From a virus: a DNA stretch of 50,021 nt. Both the position numbers and the translations under genes were made by a program. Of this stretch, positions 1 to 39,234 are shown piece by piece. How positions within the stretch are numbered: position 1 is the stretch's first letter; every line of letters starts with the position of its first letter. The DNA lies in IMG/VR virus record IMGVR_UViG_3300020202_000016, positions 1 through 50,021 of that record. The stretch is one strand, 5' to 3'. The notes under the pieces were generated by a model, which was not told where the DNA came from, did not search any database, and saw only the letters and a list, made by a program, of their open reading frames with translations.

Positions 1-127
1 AACGGCCACGAGCCGCCGACCATGTAAAATTTTTAAGATCGAACTCACCGAATGCCATAGCAGTCCAATACACGCCAGGAGAGCTCCATACATCAGTCCC
101 GTTGTGGCGCTTCGATATTTGCTCAAC
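1..127. repeat. Terminal 127-bp direct repeat (circular closure), left copy
   Basis: Bases 1-127 are identical to bases 49895-50021. The repeat lies inside a protein gene that becomes a full-length open frame only when one copy is removed. This shows the contig is a closed circle of 49,894 bp rather than a linear molecule with functional terminal repeats. The length 127 equals a common maximum k-mer of short-read assemblers, which is inference about its origin. Confidence 0.95.
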
Positions 128-415
128 GGCCTCGTGAAACGCCGCCTCAGCCGTCACCGGAGAGCGGCACAAATCCCGAAACTCTGGCAGCGTTGGCGGG
201 AACTTTCCGCAAGCAGCTAAACCAGCGCGGATTTCGTTGACGGTTAGACCTTTGAGGCCGTCAGCCCAGATGTGCTTAACCCGCAATGGGGAAACGTTCG
301 TGCCATCCCATTGCGCAACGAATTTCGAACCATAACGCGCAGTCAATTCGTCGAAAAGCCACTCGATATGCGACTTTTCAGACCCAACTCGAGTTTGCGT
401 CGATTGTGTTTGCAT
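1..415 (-). CDS. P: Replication protein P-like helicase loader, N-terminal part (continues across the circular join)
   Basis: Reading starts at ATG 415, overlaps the 3' end of the O-like gene by 38 bases, runs off base 1 and continues at 49894 down to the TAA at 49725 once the contig is circularised. The joined protein is 194 residues. It has the layout of lambda-P-family proteins: an N-terminal stretch with WLFDELTARYG, a middle LTVNEIRAGLAACG and LPEFRDLCR, and VYWTAMAFGEFDL before a charged tail. P-family proteins bring the host DnaB helicase to the O-bound origin. The position directly after the O-like gene supports this. Family assignment is from pattern recognition, not a search. Confidence 0.82.
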   Translation of the reverse strand, partial: MQTQSTQTRVGSEKSHIEWLFDELTARYGSKFVAQWDGTNVSPLRVKHIWADGLKGLTVNEIRAGLAACGKFPPTLPEFRDLCRSPVTAEAAFHEAVEQISKRHNGTDVWSSPGVYWTAMAFGEFDLKNFTWSAARGR

Positions 416-1121
416 CACGATTCCCCCCCGTCAACTCGTTCAAAAACTCAGTTCGCTTGCGGTCTCGATCCGACGAAGAATTCGAGACCGATACCATCGG
501 AACATCCTCCCAACCACGCGCATTCAGCCACGTTGCCGGGTGCGGGATGTACTTCTCCTGCTGCCAGTCAGCCGAAGTCTTGGCCCGCTCAATGGCAGCA
601 AGGATTTGCCGCAAGAGCTGCTCGTTCGGCCTGATTTTGGCAAAAGCCTTCTCTGCGTTCCCCTTCGATTTTTTTCGAGGGTAGGCTCGCCAGAAATTTT
701 CGAACCAGTGATGGTTAACTGATGGTTCAATTGATGGTTCATTGATGGTTATGGGTGCACCTCCTGCACCACTGTGGTGCGCCACGTGCACGGGTGGGGG
801 TGCATCTTCTGCACCACTGTGGTGCGGTAGATGCACTAGTGCATCTACCGCACTGGTGCGCCACGTGCACGGGTTTGTGATCTGATAAACAGTGCTTCTT
901 CCAGCTCGAATTTCATCTTTTATTAAAAAACCGGCCGCCTCAAGTTCACTAATTGCCTGAAATATAGATCGCCGGCTAAGAGAGCACTTTTCTTCCAACG
1001 TTTTTACCGACGGATAGCATTGGCCTTGATCGTTAGCGTTATCGCAGAGCGCGAGCAATACCAACTTGCGCACAGATGCAAGTTTAGTATCCCACGCTGC
1101 TGTCATTAATTTAACGCTCAC
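378..1121 (-). CDS. O: Phage replication initiator, O-like, with helix-turn-helix N-terminus
   Basis: A 247-residue protein. The N-terminal ~75 residues are a winged-helix/HTH domain (LLALCDNANDQGQCYPSVKT, then SLSRRSIFQAISELEAAGF) as in many phage replication initiators. The linker of residues ~85-135 is encoded by the repeat-rich DNA described as the origin. The C-terminal part has the FENFWRAYPRKKSKGNAEKA and YIPHPATWLNARGWED motifs usual in these proteins. By analogy with lambda O it binds iterons inside its own gene and recruits the P-like loader encoded directly downstream. It belongs to the leftward early transcript behind ninB. Confidence 0.8.
   Translation of the reverse strand: MSVKLMTAAWDTKLASVRKLVLLALCDNANDQGQCYPSVKTLEEKCSLSRRSIFQAISELEAAGFLIKDEIRAGRSTVYQITNPCTWRTSAVDALVHLPHHSGAEDAPPPVHVAHHSGAGGAPITINEPSIEPSVNHHWFENFWRAYPRKKSKGNAEKAFAKIRPNEQLLRQILAAIERAKTSADWQQEKYIPHPATWLNARGWEDVPMVSVSNSSSDRDRKRTEFLNELTGGNRDANTIDANSSWV
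709..873. other. ori: Putative replication origin: iterons and palindromes inside the O-like gene
   Basis: Four direct copies of TGATGGTT lie at 709-716, 720-727, 732-739 and 743-750, spaced 11-12 bases and so on one face of the helix. Next come two copies of the inverted repeat GCACCACTGTGGTGC (766-780 and 811-825), a perfect 32-bp palindrome at 822-853 centred on ACTAGT, and two copies of GGTGCGCCACGTGCACGGG (776-794, 855-873). Lambda carries its origin iterons in the same place, in the linker of the O gene. The array encodes a low-complexity linker, consistent with DNA-level selection. Origin function is inference. Confidence 0.65.
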
Positions 1122-1387: not shown

Positions 1388-1693
1388 TTATTTCACACCG
1401 ATTAATTTCTGCTGCCACAATAGAAGTAATGTTCTATCGCGCGCATAATCCATATACTCGATCTTCTCGTCTCGGCTCAATCGAGTACCCTGATCGATCT
1501 CGCGATGACATGCGGAACACCCGAACGCACCGAAGCAGTCGTGCGCCTTAATCCCCATTCCTTTACCATGAATTGCTTGGTTAGAATGACACCAAACGGT
1601 CGTTTCCGGGTTGCGATTGCATACACCAGAAATGCGTAGCTGACATTCCAGACCTTTGGCAGATTGAGTGAGTTTTTTATTACGGAAATTCAT
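1388..1693 (-). CDS. DUF1364 zinc-binding phage protein (putative nuclease)
   Basis: A 101-residue protein with the conserved DUF1364 layout: CQLRISGVCNRNPETTVWCH near residues 18-37, then HGKGMGIKAHD and FGCSACHREID. The paired cysteines and histidines form a likely zinc site as in HNH-like folds. The family is common in the nin-type regions of lambdoid phages; its biochemical role is not firmly known. It overlaps its upstream neighbour by four bases (ATGA), showing translational coupling in the leftward early operon. Confidence 0.8.
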   Translation of the reverse strand: MNFRNKKLTQSAKGLECQLRISGVCNRNPETTVWCHSNQAIHGKGMGIKAHDCFGAFGCSACHREIDQGTRLSRDEKIEYMDYARDRTLLLLWQQKLIGVK

Positions 1694-1890
1694 TGGTAGT
1701 AACTTTTTAGTTCACGATAAATAGCATTGAGCTTGTCCACATCAGGCCGCTTAGATTCTGCTACCTTTATTGCCCTCAAAGCGCATTCCTTAAATTGTTT
1801 AACAGTTTGGATATACGTGCAATTGGCGACAGAAATCGGCACTCGATGAGCCAACTCTAAAACTAATTTTTGAAGCTGCTCAACCCTCAA
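1690..1890 (-). CDS. Hypothetical protein in nin-like region
   Basis: A 66-residue, mostly helical protein (MRVEQLQKLVLELAHR at the start, LNAIYRELKSYYQ at the end). No family is recognised. It overlaps ninB by 11 bases upstream and DUF1364 by 4 bases downstream, so it is translated as part of that operon. It is probably a small accessory replication or recombination protein, but nothing in the sequence fixes the role. Confidence 0.7.
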   Translation of the reverse strand: MRVEQLQKLVLELAHRVPISVANCTYIQTVKQFKECALRAIKVAESKRPDVDKLNAIYRELKSYYQ

Positions 1891-2245
1891 AATTCACCCC
1901 TCTATCGGCTCCAAATGCGTAAATTAATTCAGTCAAATCAGATAACAATTTCTTACTCATTCGACTGGTTCGTTGCCCACAAATGACTGCTTCTCCGTCA
2001 ATTCCTGGTATGATTTTTGCTTTTACTAAACTTGCGGTAAATACGTCTTTCCACTCTTCCGATGAGAGCTTATTTCCATACCAATCGACTTGCTGCGAGA
2101 CTTGCTCTAATAATTTCCAGAGCAATGCGTTTTGTTTGAGGCTACGGGTTGGTTCTTTGATTTGGACTACGTAACCCAAGGGGGTAAAACGAATAGCGGT
2201 GATTGCATTCGTTCGGACTTGATCGTTTTCGATGACATAGATCAT
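1880..2245 (-). CDS. ninB: NinB-family recombination protein
   Basis: A 121-residue protein with NinB signatures: the N-terminal half carries the Arg-Ser-Leu-Lys-Gln-Asn-Ala-Leu-Trp-Lys motif, followed by SQQVDWYGNKLSSEEWKDVFTASL and the C-terminal GQRTSRMSKKLLSDLTELIYAFGADRGV. NinB (lambda Orf) is a recombination mediator that binds ssDNA and SSB and can replace RecFOR. Length is close to the usual ~140 residues. It overlaps neighbours on both sides in the leftward early operon ahead of the replication genes. Confidence 0.85.
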   Translation of the reverse strand: MIYVIENDQVRTNAITAIRFTPLGYVVQIKEPTRSLKQNALLWKLLEQVSQQVDWYGNKLSSEEWKDVFTASLVKAKIIPGIDGEAVICGQRTSRMSKKLLSDLTELIYAFGADRGVNFEG

Positions 2246-2475
2246 TTCTCCAATCCTGCATAGACGAAATCAGCATAAATTGATTCGCGTTCGCAATTTT
2301 TGTTGTAGATACCGATTAGCACATGTGATCGATCTTTACGGATTCCGTGCGGGGTAAAGCAAAATGAACCGTCCTGCGCATCGTATACAGATAGGGTTCC
2401 GTACTTTTGTAGCGCGCGTAGCAGCGTACCGGCCGCCTTAGACGCGGATTTTGCAGTTGTGCGCAGGCGTATCAT
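2242..2475 (-). CDS. Hypothetical protein upstream of ninB
   Basis: A 77-residue protein starting MIRLRTTAKSASKAAGTLLR, basic at the N-terminus and more neutral and aromatic later (DGSFCFTPHGIRKDRSHVLI). No family is recognised. Its stop overlaps the ninB start by four bases, and it follows the Cro-like gene by 32 bases, so it is an early-operon gene. Confidence 0.65.
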   Translation of the reverse strand: MIRLRTTAKSASKAAGTLLRALQKYGTLSVYDAQDGSFCFTPHGIRKDRSHVLIGIYNKNCERESIYADFVYAGLEK

Positions 2476-2507
2476 TTTTCCAATCCGTAAGCTATCTGTA
2501 AGTGACT

Positions 2508-2702
2508 CTATGGTTTAATGCGGTTTTTCAGGCACGTATAGAGCCGCAAAACTTTCAAAAATCCGGGATCGGCGGTTTCTCTATATGCGATTTTTCGCAA
2601 TGTACCGAGCCGGACTCCAGATTTTTTTGCAATGCAATCCCACTCACTCCTTGGAATAGCAATAAGCCCGTCGATGACGGTATCCAATATGTTAGTTTTC
2701 AT
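2508..2702 (-). CDS. Cro-like small DNA-binding regulator
   Basis: The preferred start is ATG 2702, giving 64 residues (MKTNILDTVIDGLIAIPRSE). WDCIAKKSGVRLGTLRKIAY reads as a helix-turn-helix, followed by VLRLYTCL. It is the first gene of the leftward early operon and diverges from the CI-like gene, which is the place of Cro (or a CII-type regulator) in lambdoid phages. It is divergent in sequence, so the exact role is inferred from position. A longer start at 2738 would run over the operator and is less likely. Confidence 0.6.
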   Translation of the reverse strand: MKTNILDTVIDGLIAIPRSEWDCIAKKSGVRLGTLRKIAYRETADPGFLKVLRLYTCLKNRIKP

Positions 2703-2709
2703 CGACAGA

Positions 2710-2742
2710 ATTCTCTTCTCATTTATTAGATATGTCAACTCA
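2710..2742 (-). promoter_or_regulatory. Leftward early promoter (PR-like) with operator word
   Basis: On the minus strand TTGACA (plus 2733-2738) lies 17 bases from GAGAAT (plus 2710-2715). It overlaps the 13-base word AGATATGTCAACT (2728-2740), whose exact inverse occurs at the rightward early promoter (3736-3748). The -10 box is weak and only 8 bases from ATG 2702, so the start site is uncertain. Confidence 0.45.
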
Positions 2743-2776
2743 CAAATTAGATGTATTTTGCGACATCATGCTAAGT

Positions 2777-3247
2777 ATGAGCGTTAAAGATATACTTGCT
2801 GCGAATCTAAAAAAGCTGATGGATTCAGACGCCCGGTTGCGCACATGCGACGCGGTGGGTCAACGTTCCGGCGTGAGTCGCAGTACTATTAATAGAGTAA
2901 CCCGGGGTTCTGGTGGTGTTTCGGTCGATCACGCCGAAGAGATCGCACAAGCATTTAAGTTAGAATTATGGCAACTACTATCACCAAATCTTGATCCGCA
3001 AGCACCCCCCGTGCTGAGCACGGGAGATCAAAATGTAATGCGACTTGCGCGCATTATCGCGAGTTTGGACGAATCGCAACAAGCGCAGGTAATTGGATTT
3101 GTTTCGGGGGTTAAGGTAAACCAGGGGTTGCGCCCAAATATAGCTATAGATGATAATTCGACGATTCAGCAATCATTGATAAGTGATCGGAGCGAGCGTG
3201 GGGGAGCTGGTTTACTTTGCGAGGCAAAGGCCCGTAAAGCGGGATGA
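2777..3247 (+). CDS. CI-like XRE-family repressor without a peptidase domain
   Basis: About 156 residues from ATG 2777 (upstream in-frame ATGs at 2732 and 2768 are possible). It begins SVKDILAANLKKLMDSDARL and holds an XRE-type helix-turn-helix: CDAVGQRSGVSRSTINRVTR followed by VSVDHAEEIAQAFKLELWQL. The rest (LARIIASLDESQQAQVIGFV) is helical, with no S24/LexA-type Ser-Lys dyad visible. Induction may therefore not use RecA-stimulated self-cleavage. The gene diverges from the Cro-like gene and occupies the cI position between the two early promoters. Confidence 0.72.
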   Translation: MSVKDILAANLKKLMDSDARLRTCDAVGQRSGVSRSTINRVTRGSGGVSVDHAEEIAQAFKLELWQLLSPNLDPQAPPVLSTGDQNVMRLARIIASLDESQQAQVIGFVSGVKVNQGLRPNIAIDDNSTIQQSLISDRSERGGAGLLCEAKARKAG

Positions 3248-8120: not shown

Positions 8121-8289
8121 CGGTATCGGATTTTGCGGTCTGCTTACCATTGCATTAATCGTATTAAAACTGTGTAACGTCATCACATGGTCTTGGTGGT
8201 GGATAACCGCGCCGATATGGTTGCCACTGCTTGTTTTCGGAATTGCTATCTTGGTGTTTTTTAGTATTTTTTATTGGATTGACAAATGA
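8110..8289 (+). pseudogene. Small transmembrane protein frame lacking a normal start codon
   Basis: The frame open from 8110 to the TGA at 8289 encodes SGIGFCGLLTIALIVLKLCN then ITWSWWWITAPIWLPLL and VFFSIFYWIDK. This is a two-helix phage membrane family with a characteristic WSWWW motif. There is no ATG, GTG or TTG at the N-terminus: a TAA at 8107 immediately precedes the frame, and only rare codons (ATC 8125, ATT 8155) could start it. Either a rare start is used or the start was lost. Its stop overlaps the next ATG at 8286. Confidence 0.5.
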
Positions 8290-9056
8290 AGATTGAGATT
8301 AAAAACTTTTGGAATGCTCAAGTATTATTTAGCTTTGAATGCGAAGGCAATACGATTGCAATTACGCTAAAAGCGGCCGTCAACGCAAAAACAAACCTGA
8401 GCGATGCAGACCTGCGCGGTGCAGTCCTGAGCGGTGCAGTCCTGCGCGGTGCAGTCCTGCGCGGTGCAGTCCTGAGCGGTGCAGTCCTGAGCGGTGCAGT
8501 CCTGCGCGGTGCAGACCTGAGCGGTGCAAACCTGAGCGATGCAGACCTGAGCGATGCAGACCTGAGCGGTGCAGTCCTGAGCGGTGCAGTCCTGAGCGGT
8601 GCAGTCCTGAGCGGTGCAAACCTGCGCCGTGCAGTCCTGAGCGGCGCAGACCTGAGCGATGCAGTCCTGCGCGGTGCAGTCCTGAGCGCTGCAGTCCTGA
8701 GCGGCGCAGACCTGAGCGGTGCAGTCCTGAGCGGTGCAAACCTGCGCGGTGTGCCTTGTATTGAAAACATTCACCAAACAATTTTCGCGGCAGCCTCCCA
8801 GCCGTGCGCACTTAACATGGCTCAATGGCATACATGCGAAACCACACATTGCCGCGCCGGATGGGTCGTTGCGAAAGCAGGTGAAGCTGGCGCAGCAATG
8901 GAATACTGTATTGGTACAGCAGCGGCCGCAGCATTAATCTATTTAAAAAGTGATCCTCACTTGGAGAAATTTCCTAATTTCTACGCTAGTGATGAAGAAG
9001 CATTGGCTGATATGGAACGATTGGCTCGGTTGGAAGCGGCGAGGGTAACGATATGA
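8286..9056 (+). CDS. Pentapeptide-repeat protein with phage C-terminal domain
   Basis: A 256-residue protein. Residues ~35-155 are consecutive pentapeptides of the A(V/D/N)L(S/R)G type, predicted to fold as a right-handed quadrilateral beta-helix. The C-terminal ~100 residues (FAAASQPCALNMAQWHTC, TTHCRAGWVVAKAGEAG, NFYASDEEALADMERLA) form a domain seen at the end of many phage pentapeptide proteins. Some pentapeptide proteins mimic DNA and inhibit gyrase; no such role is shown here. The repeat DNA is nearly uniform, which opens long false frames on both strands. Confidence 0.85.
   Translation: MKIEIKNFWNAQVLFSFECEGNTIAITLKAAVNAKTNLSDADLRGAVLSGAVLRGAVLRGAVLSGAVLSGAVLRGADLSGANLSDADLSDADLSGAVLSGAVLSGAVLSGANLRRAVLSGADLSDAVLRGAVLSAAVLSGADLSGAVLSGANLRGVPCIENIHQTIFAAASQPCALNMAQWHTCETTHCRAGWVVAKAGEAGAAMEYCIGTAAAAALIYLKSDPHLEKFPNFYASDEEALADMERLARLEAARVTI
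8399..8753 (+). repeat. 15-nt tandem repeat array encoding pentapeptides
   Basis: About 23 tandem units of CTG(A/C)GCGGTGCAG(T/A)(C/A)(C/T)-type sequence encode the beta-helix. Units are far more alike than protein selection requires. The array is therefore young or kept homogeneous by slippage or recombination, and its copy number may vary between phage individuals. Confidence 0.8.
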
Positions 9057-22437: not shown

Positions 22438-23511
22438 GTGAATTCTGATATTCAGAAATTAAGAGCGCTGGCGGTTATTCTTGTAATATTTGGACATATG
22501 CAAGGAAGTTTATTCCATAGCCCAAACATCCTCACAGAGTTTCTCTCGCACTTTTGGCTGGGTGGTGGCGTTGATCTATTCTTCTGTATTTCTGGTTTTG
22601 TTATAAGTAAAAAAATAGTATCTATCATTGATAATCACAAAAACAATCAGAATGAACAGTGGCAAATAATAAAAGAATTCTGGATAAAAAGGGCCTTTCG
22701 TTTATTGCCATCAGCTTGGTTCTGGATGTTATTTCCACTAGTCGGCAGTCTCTTCTTCAATCAGTCCGGTGTCTTTGGACTGGAGGCAGCAAACCTTAAA
22801 AGTGTTGCGGCGATCATTTTATATGTTGCGAACTTTGCGCAGGCGTTCGGGCCTGGGCTTGGTGCAAACGGGTCATATTGGAGCTTAGCACTGGAAGAGC
22901 AATTTTACTTTGCATTCCCGTTTTTTCTGCTATTCGTCTCAAAACGCGTGCGCTGGTTGATCCTACTGTTAGCCATCATTGCACTAACAAGCCACTGGCC
23001 TTCGTATAGCGTTTGGAGGTTGGATTCAATCATTTTCGGCGTATTACTATATTTCTTCTCAAGATCGGTTGGATCTAAATTGTTCGAACCGCGCGTCATG
23101 GAGACGCGCTGGGTTTCGTTTTCGATAGTCGGAATACTTGTATTGAGCCTAACTTTAATAAATCAAGCTATCCCAGGAGCTCAATATAAATACACAATTG
23201 TTGGCTTCTTTACCGCGATTCTTGTATTTATGGCCTCTTTCGATAAAAACTACATTCTTCCGTCGAAAAGACTAAACGCGGCTTTACGGTACATCGGCAA
23301 TCGTAGTTATGCGATTTACCTGGTGCATATGCCAGCATACCTACTAACAAACGAAATTTGGAATAAAAAAGAAGTAGGCTCATTAACAATCGCAATAACC
23401 GGACTCTCTCTTATTTTTGCTTTTTCTGAATTAAGCTATAGATTTATAGAATCGCCGATGAGAAATTTTAAGGGGCGCAGAGAACCGAACGCTCTGCTTG
23501 TGGATCGATAG
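22438..23511 (+). CDS. Acyltransferase 3 family membrane protein (O-acetyltransferase-like)
   Basis: A 357-residue polytopic membrane protein starting at GTG 22438: DIQKLRALAVILVIFGHM with the conserved His, WLGGGVDLFFCISGFVIS, IKRAFRLLPS-type KRAFRLLPSAW, GSYWSLALEEQFYFAFP and RYIGNRSYAIYLVHMP near the end. This family acylates lipopolysaccharide and other surface sugars. In temperate phages it causes serotype conversion and blocks superinfection. Length is usual. Its own promoter seems to have been split by the IS insertion just upstream. Confidence 0.88.
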   Translation: MNSDIQKLRALAVILVIFGHMQGSLFHSPNILTEFLSHFWLGGGVDLFFCISGFVISKKIVSIIDNHKNNQNEQWQIIKEFWIKRAFRLLPSAWFWMLFPLVGSLFFNQSGVFGLEAANLKSVAAIILYVANFAQAFGPGLGANGSYWSLALEEQFYFAFPFFLLFVSKRVRWLILLLAIIALTSHWPSYSVWRLDSIIFGVLLYFFSRSVGSKLFEPRVMETRWVSFSIVGILVLSLTLINQAIPGAQYKYTIVGFFTAILVFMASFDKNYILPSKRLNAALRYIGNRSYAIYLVHMPAYLLTNEIWNKKEVGSLTIAITGLSLIFAFSELSYRFIESPMRNFKGRREPNALLVDR

Positions 23512-38269: not shown

Positions 38270-39234
38270 TTGTATAGTCCAAAAAATTGGCAATCAGCCG
38301 AGCCAATGGTTTTAGTCTCTGCAGTAGAAGAGTTACAGGCCACAATTCCCGTCGAAAACGCCATCCCATAAACGCCATAGTCGATGCTGAAATTTTGAGC
38401 AGCAGCAACATAAATATTAGAAAGCGGTACAGTGCCATTGGCGGGAAGAGAAGCAGAATTATGAAGCTGAATAAATTGTCCTGGCCCAGAGTTATAACCA
38501 GATATCCCGTAAAGCGTTCCTGCCGATGCTTTGATTACACTATTGGTTGCATACGCCGCTTGAGTAGAATTGGTTGGCGCGCCAGTATTCGCAACCGGGG
38601 CCAAGTTATATAAGGCATTCGTCGCAGGTGTAACAGATAACGAACCCGCACTAGTCGTTGCTCCCAATGCAGCAGGCAATTTCGCCGACATCGCTGCTAA
38701 TGTTGCTTCAGTCGCCGCCCCCGTTGGCAGCGCGGAAGAAGAAACTACCACAGCACCAGTATTGACAGCCGTGACCTTCGCATTTAATGCAGACAACGTT
38801 GCTTCAGTCGAAGCGCCTGAAGGTAAGGCCGAAGAAGAGACAACGACGGCCCCGGTATCGACAACTGTCACCTTCGCATTGAGTGCCGATAAAGTCGCCT
38901 CGGTCGAAGCGCCAGTAGGTAACGCTGAAGAAGACACAACAACAGCGCCAGTGTTAACCGCTGTCACCTTTGTATTGAGCGCTGAAAGGGTTGCCTCCGT
39001 CGAAGCCCCCGTCGGAAGCGCGGAGGATGCAACCACAACCGCGCCGGTATTGACAGCGGTAATCTTGCCATCAATCGATGACAACGACGCATTACCAGTA
39101 ACTTGCAGCGCAGCAGTTGCAGCCCCAACTGGCAATACAATCGTTGCTGAAACAGGTAAAGGATTTGCATCTGAGACCTGTGTAGTTGATGTTCCATTTC
39201 CAGCTTGATCGACTGTAATACTGTAATTGGCCAT
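38266..39234 (-). CDS. Repeat-containing virion protein (head-fibre-like)
   Basis: 322 residues. Residues ~60-190 hold about four copies of a 32-residue repeat ([20 protein letters not shown], then [12 protein letters not shown]). The C-terminal ~110 residues are a non-repetitive beta domain. Repeat shafts with a globular tip are seen in phage head fibres. The gene follows the portal gene by two bases. Confidence 0.7.

Follow-up and report, generated by a model that had tools for sequence, protein, structure and literature searches.

The IMG/VR contig IMGVR_UViG_3300020202_000016 is classed as a complete virus record, and its entire length of 50,021 bases (hereafter called the window) was analyzed in this study. 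We focus on an array of DNA repeats at positions 709 to 870, which resides within a gene for a replication initiator resembling the O protein of phage lambda and is a strong candidate for the replication origin of this phage. Positions 1-127 and 49895-50021 form a perfect 127-bp terminal direct repeat, which is probably the overlap of a circular assembly. Because the first 127 bases recur at the contig end, the record was analyzed as circular, with a length of 49,894 bases. The genes that define the neighborhood of the array are as follows.

378 to 1121, minus strand: O-like replication initiator gene, 247 amino acids, with matches to HTH_36, phrog_270 and phrog_391
2 to 418, minus strand, continuing across the contig junction to 49725 (195 codons): start part of the P-like helicase-loader gene, phrog_109 match (2.3e-11)
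1880 to 2245, minus strand: NinB-like recombination gene, PF05772 match (6e-42), same operon direction, lambdoid context

The initiator protein matches HTH_36 (5.8e-14, spanning residues 19-66), phrog_270 (replication initiation protein, 2.3e-40) and phrog_391 (O-like, 3.6e-21). A winged-helix N-terminal domain (approximately residues 1-82) is followed by a repeat-encoded linker (approximately 83-136) and a C-terminal FWxxYPxK domain (approximately 138-205). An AlphaFold model of the N-terminal domain has pLDDT values of 84-97 across residues 1-80 and finds winged-helix matches in the PDB. These structural matches are generic and do not single out a sharp family, but they include a 4pt7 chain titled "Structure of initiator" (Z 8.5). 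Searching PDB sequences with the initiator gave weak winged-helix matches only, with TubR at the top (0.069), and the same search with lambda O gave no match. The Phage_rep_O profile (PF04492) has no match in the initiator protein, whereas lambda O scores 5.7e-36. Judged by these profile matches, the initiator is a protein that would work like lambda O yet falls outside the DNA-binding domain family of lambda O. The P-like gene is the next gene downstream and crosses the junction formed by the 127-bp repeat. Its joined product matches phrog_109 over residues 3-138 and has no Pfam match. Upstream of the initiator gene are NinB- and YbcO-like genes, and the gene content thus reads as a lambdoid replication module composed of O-like, P-like and NinB/YbcO-like genes.

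The array occupies the linker-coding stretch between the HTH_36 and C-terminal domains, such that the order of parts within the gene is DNA-binding domain, iterons, AACC module and C-terminal domain. Lambda follows this order too, with an AT-rich tract where the AACC module is located here. Its components, numbered in the direction of the gene, are listed below. The term iteron is used here for candidate initiator-binding sites.

743-750, 732-739, 720-727 and 709-716 (block 709 to 750), minus strand: four AACCATCA repeats, spaced 11, 12 and 11 bp apart and located in three codon frames
856 to 870, minus strand: iteron 1, GTGCACGTGGCGCAC, a GTGC-N7-GCAC dyad
839 to 853, minus strand: iteron 2, GTGCGGTAGATGCAC on the coding strand, 17 bp from iteron 1
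822 to 836, minus strand: iteron 3, GTGCATCTACCGCAC on the coding strand, 17 bp from iteron 2 and its exact reverse complement
800 to 814, minus strand: iteron 4, GTGCAGAAGATGCAC, 22 bp from iteron 3
777 to 791, minus strand: iteron 5, GTGCACGTGGCGCAC, identical to iteron 1 and 23 bp from iteron 4
755 to 769, minus strand: iteron 6, GTGCAGGAGGTGCAC, 22 bp from iteron 5 and the closest iteron to the AACC module
822 to 853, no strand assigned: perfect 32-bp palindrome, composed of iteron 3, TA and iteron 2
776 to 794, no strand assigned: 19-bp direct repeat, copy 1, GGTGCGCCACGTGCACGGG, composed of iteron 5 and its flanks
855 to 873, no strand assigned: 19-bp direct repeat, copy 2, GGTGCGCCACGTGCACGGG, composed of iteron 1 and its flanks

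An earlier prediction made from the letters of this DNA alone had described four phased TGATGGTT copies, 15-bp inverted repeats, a perfect 32-bp palindrome and 19-bp direct repeats, and all of these are present. The TGATGGTT copies begin at 709, 720, 732 and 743, with just two further copies across 50 kb, and the inverted repeats include those at 755-769 and 800-814. On the coding strand, TGATGGTT is written as AACCATCA. The G+C-rich repeats all reduce to a single 15-bp unit, GTGC-N7-GCAC, which is present in six copies with start-to-start distances of 17-17-22-23-22 bp. The palindrome exists because the neighboring iterons 2 and 3 are reverse complements of each other. The TGCA core of iteron 6 begins 18 bp ahead of the first AACC, and the AACC block carries 7% G on one strand. 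This array is the densest inverted-repeat stretch of the window, and the record holds no other chain of at least three GTGC-N7-GCAC dyads. Separately, positions 14854-14890 form a perfect 16-bp inverted repeat with a 5-nucleotide loop, whose arms are as long as those of the palindrome in the array; this is possibly a transcription terminator.

To define what the protein sequence alone requires, the codons of the initiator gene were randomized synonymously (two sets of 1,000 randomizations) with the protein unchanged. The 16-bp arms of the palindrome were never equaled (maximum of 9 with no loop), and the longest exact repeat is 21 in the natural gene compared to a maximum of 18 in the randomized genes. 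Likewise, the six GTGC-N7-GCAC dyads, the four AACCATCA copies and the 11 inverted repeats exceed the respective maxima of 4, 2 and 6. The constraint therefore falls on DNA, and the repeats far exceed what the protein requires, because synonymous shuffles never reproduce the array and because the four AACCATCA copies occupy three codon frames, unlike a protein repeat. A protein-level account of the repeats was rejected on the basis of the shuffles.

These same data bear on whether the repeats could be a by-product of a low-complexity linker encoded by repeats (P-V-H-x-x-H-H-S-G-A units), without any function at the DNA level. A repetitive linker is indeed what the iterons encode, and this region is poorly predicted and probably flexible. 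However, the repeats vanish in shuffles that preserve the protein, and none of the spacings (17, 22, 23 and 22) is divisible by 3. Furthermore, in the related genes described below, copies within one AACC run usually occupy two or even three codon frames, with all three used in 41 of the 69 run-bearing genes. We therefore consider this explanation extremely improbable.

Relatives of the array were sought with blastn, using the 191-bp array alone as the query and keeping matches with E of at most 1. This search returned 11 phage records, and in 10 of them the match is in a gene annotated or positioned as an O initiator or primosomal gene. Among these records are Pseudomonas phages MD8, TC7 and LPPA33, Escherichia phages 2H10, PhiR40_1 and PhiR55_1, Bordetella phage PHB09 and Morganella phage IME1369_02. 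The remaining match is short and lies inside a capsid gene. The whole initiator protein, used as a query against viral and genome contigs, had no matches, and nine aligned C-terminal domains proved too diverse for a search. A search with the N-terminal domain yielded 160 further loci in viral contigs and bacterial genomes, from which 149 distinct genes plus that of the window (150 genes in total) were analyzed.

Genes in this collection carry a mean of 3.3 TGCA-N5-TGCA iteron cores, compared to 0.84 in synonymous shuffles, and the dominant core spacings are 17 and 21-24 bp. The spacing string 17-17-22-23-22 of the window recurs exactly in two loci (L354 and L368), a de novo dyad search recovered it in two others (L341 and L345), and the string in 11 Pseudomonas-type genes is one base off. 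In 49 genes, the last iteron core is 18 bp ahead of AACC. Runs of at least four AACC copies at 10-12 bp are present in 44 genes, compared to 2.2 in shuffles (maximum of 5). We also used the flanks of the same loci as a control. Within the O genes, AACC runs occur in 43 and iteron chains in 71, whereas approximately 709,000 bases of flanking DNA over both strands hold no AACC run of four and no iteron chain of three. Related genes share ancestry, so these gene counts are not independent, but the synonymous null and the flank control are unaffected by this. The same plan occurs in phages of Pseudomonas, Burkholderiales and other Proteobacteria. The window has each part of it: an HTH_36 N-terminal domain, dyads at 17 or 22 bp, 18 bp from the last iteron to AACC, and three to four AACC(A/G)TCA copies at 10-12 bp.

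The palindrome does not belong to this shared plan. No other gene among the 150 has a loop-free palindrome longer than 18 bp. This structure is the sole feature peculiar to this phage and is probably incidental. A role as a conserved functional cruciform was therefore rejected. In the linker of another locus (L477, O gene start 1501), complementary 16-bp arms with a loop of 9 arise from two adjacent iterons of opposite sense, which is the same route that produced the palindrome of the window.

The repeats follow one part of the initiator. When O-like genes were gathered by using the C-terminal domain of the window protein, many had a lambda-type or other N-terminal domain, and AACC runs were absent from them except in isolated cases; these loci carry other repeats or none of the AACC type. 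Among HTH_36 genes, the AACC module accompanies several C-terminal domains. Because AACC runs are rare with other N-terminal domains and are present across C-terminal types, the iterons and the AACC module travel with the N-terminal domain. The initiator of the window is itself a domain mosaic, since its FWxxYPxK C-terminal type is usually paired with another N-terminal clade.

We then compared the half-site found de novo in each gene with every column of the N-terminal domain, using 56 genes that remained after a 90% identity filter. Residue 54, which is in the predicted recognition helix (residues 50-63), ranks first for covariation with the dyad sequence. Genes with R or K at this residue have G at half-site position 2 in 10 of 10 cases, compared to 0 of 46 for genes with other residues. 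Taken over its full length, the recognition helix shows no significant excess of covariation (Mann-Whitney p 0.15). AACC(A/G)TCA is unchanged over eight iteron half-site classes in the clade of the window, and the block is constant across phages that differ in iteron sequence and in C-terminal domain.

In lambda, an O dimer binds each iteron, an imperfect inverted repeat of 19 bp (PMC7466680). Because the known lambda iteron is an inverted repeat, and because the dyad sequence shifts with the recognition helix while AACC(A/G)TCA stays constant, the candidate initiator-binding sites are most likely the six GTGC-N7-GCAC dyads and not TGATGGTT. Covariation supports binding of the dyads by the O-like protein and is suggestive of the winged helix as the part that binds. 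The surface that would bind the dyads probably does not read the AACC module, since AACC runs are maintained in genes of eight half-site classes. Thus, TGATGGTT is less likely than the dyads to represent the initiator iterons, and this assignment in the original prediction is probably wrong.

GC skew, which had been suggested as a check on an origin at this site, was computed cumulatively on the circle. The minimum is at 2,118 (95%, 1,620-3,014), in the region of the array, and the maximum, at 23,147, lies almost across the circle from it. The observed amplitude is reached by no block shuffle, and the skew flips sign by arm on both coding strands, as judged from a crude map of open reading frames. 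GC skew therefore supports an origin in this region without pinpointing the array. The skew maximum (approximately 23100), nearly opposite the array, is a candidate replication terminus.

We conclude that the array is very probably the theta-type replication origin of the phage, located inside the linker-coding part of its own initiator gene. This reading, which bears out the central claim of the original prediction, is based on the O-like and P-like neighbors, the constraint at the DNA level, the recurrence of this array within O genes of further phages, and a nearby minimum of GC skew.

Several observations count against this interpretation or parts of it. The skew minimum is 1.3 kb off the array, and the direction of transcription also switches in that area. 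The phrog_109 match of the P-like protein is weak and partial. The AACC block is only approximately 64% A+T, and the most A+T-rich 40-mer in the vicinity is instead 891-930, at 70%. The residue-54 rule corresponds to about three independent changes on a tree built without that column (sign test p 0.25); with just three changes, this test cannot reach significance. The rule also has exceptions among loci fetched later, where 20 of 22 agree when redundant loci are counted and 4 of 5 agree when they are not, and one locus (L502) is a genuine exception.

The offset of the skew minimum, at 2.1 kb and not exactly at the array, is what might be expected if the array were an origin by descent that is now dormant, with replication proceeding mainly from another site. 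However, the six iterons and the four AACC copies have all remained intact and show constraint at the synonymous level, and no other iteron chain is present anywhere in the record. We regard a dormant origin as highly improbable. A regulatory function, either as a set of RNA hairpins in the O message or as an operator for self-repression by O, is also very unlikely. The transcript of positions 752-874 folds strongly (-64.9 kcal/mol, z -4.7), and autoregulation is frequent among initiators. Yet conservation extends to the iteron spacing and the AACC module and not to the long palindrome, which only this phage has (the next longest loop-free example is 18 bp). Furthermore, no terminator-like T run follows the array, and its position within the gene matches the lambda origin and not an upstream operator.

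If the array is an origin, how might it act? In lambda, O binding bends DNA, and an adjacent tract opens in supercoiled DNA before O-P-DnaB loading (PMC7466680, PMC5043065). By analogy, dimers of the O-like protein would bind the six dyads (755-870, approximately 17 or 22 bp apart) via the N-terminal winged-helix domain and form a complex like the lambda O-some, bending the DNA. Strain would be released in the adjoining block of four AACCATCA copies (709-750), which would then open. The C-terminal domain and the P-like loader would bring host DnaB to the opened strand. Both the use of the AACCATCA block as the opening element and the P/DnaB loading step are proposals, the latter following the lambda paradigm.

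The AACCATCA copies may act through low stability, by offering O, P or DnaB a contact on single-stranded DNA, or by serving as a second site in duplex form. One tentative possibility is that the four AACC(A/G)TCA copies are a dedicated, sequence-specific element for strand opening or helicase loading, which would be read in single-stranded form by the phage initiator or loader or by a conserved host factor, and would replace the generic AT-rich tract of lambda. A similarly doubtful alternative is that both modules are initiator sites, with the N-terminal domain on the dyads and a second O surface on duplex AACCATCA, in which case the AACC block would not be the opening site. The phase of 11-12 bp sets the AACC copies on one helix face, and the fixed 18-bp gap from the last iteron is suggestive of one rigid complex. 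Conversely, the constancy of AACC(A/G)TCA over eight half-site classes makes it unlikely that one domain reads both sequences, and the AACC block occupies the place of the unwinding tract of lambda.

Close relatives of this array are in MD8-type O genes (Pseudomonas phages MD8, TC7 and LPPA33, and related prophages). These have an HTH_36 N-terminal domain, TGCA-N5-TGCA cores at 17-17-21-23-22 and four AACC copies at 11-12 bp, and their array DNA is approximately 71-72% identical along about half its length. They differ from the window in the C-terminal domain, which in MD8 resembles that of lambda O. IMG/VR phages L341, L354 and L368 share the CCCATAACC junction of the window, and a Collimonas prophage (L421) has CCCAGAACC. 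Unlike the window, L354, L368, L341, L345 and prophages such as L421 have no long loop-free palindrome, and their C-terminal domains are of other kinds (phrog_678/6451 type in L354 and L368).

The location of the lambda origin within the O gene is textbook knowledge, and the iterons of iteron plasmids reside outside the rep gene. In the lambda origin and those of Stx phages P27 and 933W, as in the array, dyad-symmetric iterons precede the opening tract (a proposed one in the array) along the gene, and a P-like gene comes next. Plasmids RK2, P1 and F likewise place phased initiator sites next to an opening region. However, most iterons in plasmids are direct repeats, to which monomers bind (PMC5043065), whereas the array has dyads inside the initiator gene. 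In-gene O origins have been noted for Stx phages, P22 and L (PMC7466680, PMC8022706), and the Stx phages also have six iterons (PMC7466680). The putative origins in gene 18 of phages L and P22 also comprise repeats within the initiator gene that differ per phage, specifically six 11-bp TGTCCAACGGA repeats in L and four repeats of approximately 20 bp in P22 (PMC8022706).

Lambda has four annotated 18-bp iterons at 20, 24 and 23 bp, a plain A-rich tract and the Phage_rep_O DNA-binding domain (PF04492), whereas the window has six iterons of another sequence at 17-17-22-23-22, the phased module of four AACCATCA copies at the same place and an HTH_36 domain. A departure from the lambda plan had been proposed on the basis of the long palindrome and the duplicated block. 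The palindrome and the duplicated block are, however, by-products of iteron arrangement, and the array departs from lambda in the DNA-binding family of its initiator, the six-iteron spacing and the phased module. The open-access literature searched, which misses most subscription papers, yielded no account of the six-iteron geometry and its conservation, of the 18-bp junction or of the AACC module. Judging from these comparisons, probable lambda-type in-gene origins with six sites, four phased AACCATCA repeats and a non-lambda DNA-binding domain are shared by many public, unstudied phages and seem to be undescribed as a class.

Two other repeats were noticed in the record. An open reading frame at 8286-9056 includes a 15-bp tandem array (8396-8751, approximately 24 copies) encoding A(V/D/N)L(S/R)G units, and its product is apparently a pentapeptide-repeat protein. 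Some proteins of this type mimic DNA. In addition, a 96-bp tandem repeat is present in 3.4 copies at 38731-39057.

These findings indicate that lambda-type in-gene origins occur with an unrelated family of initiator DNA-binding domains, and with a rigid geometry common to several proteobacterial phage groups. Each initiator gene holds its own sites, and therefore protein and site evolve within one stretch of DNA. Hundreds of natural protein-site pairs could thus be used to study initiator specificity, with residue 54 as a starting point, and the constant AACC module offers a practical entry point for asking how such origins open. The array geometry could also be used to locate origins in metagenomic phages.
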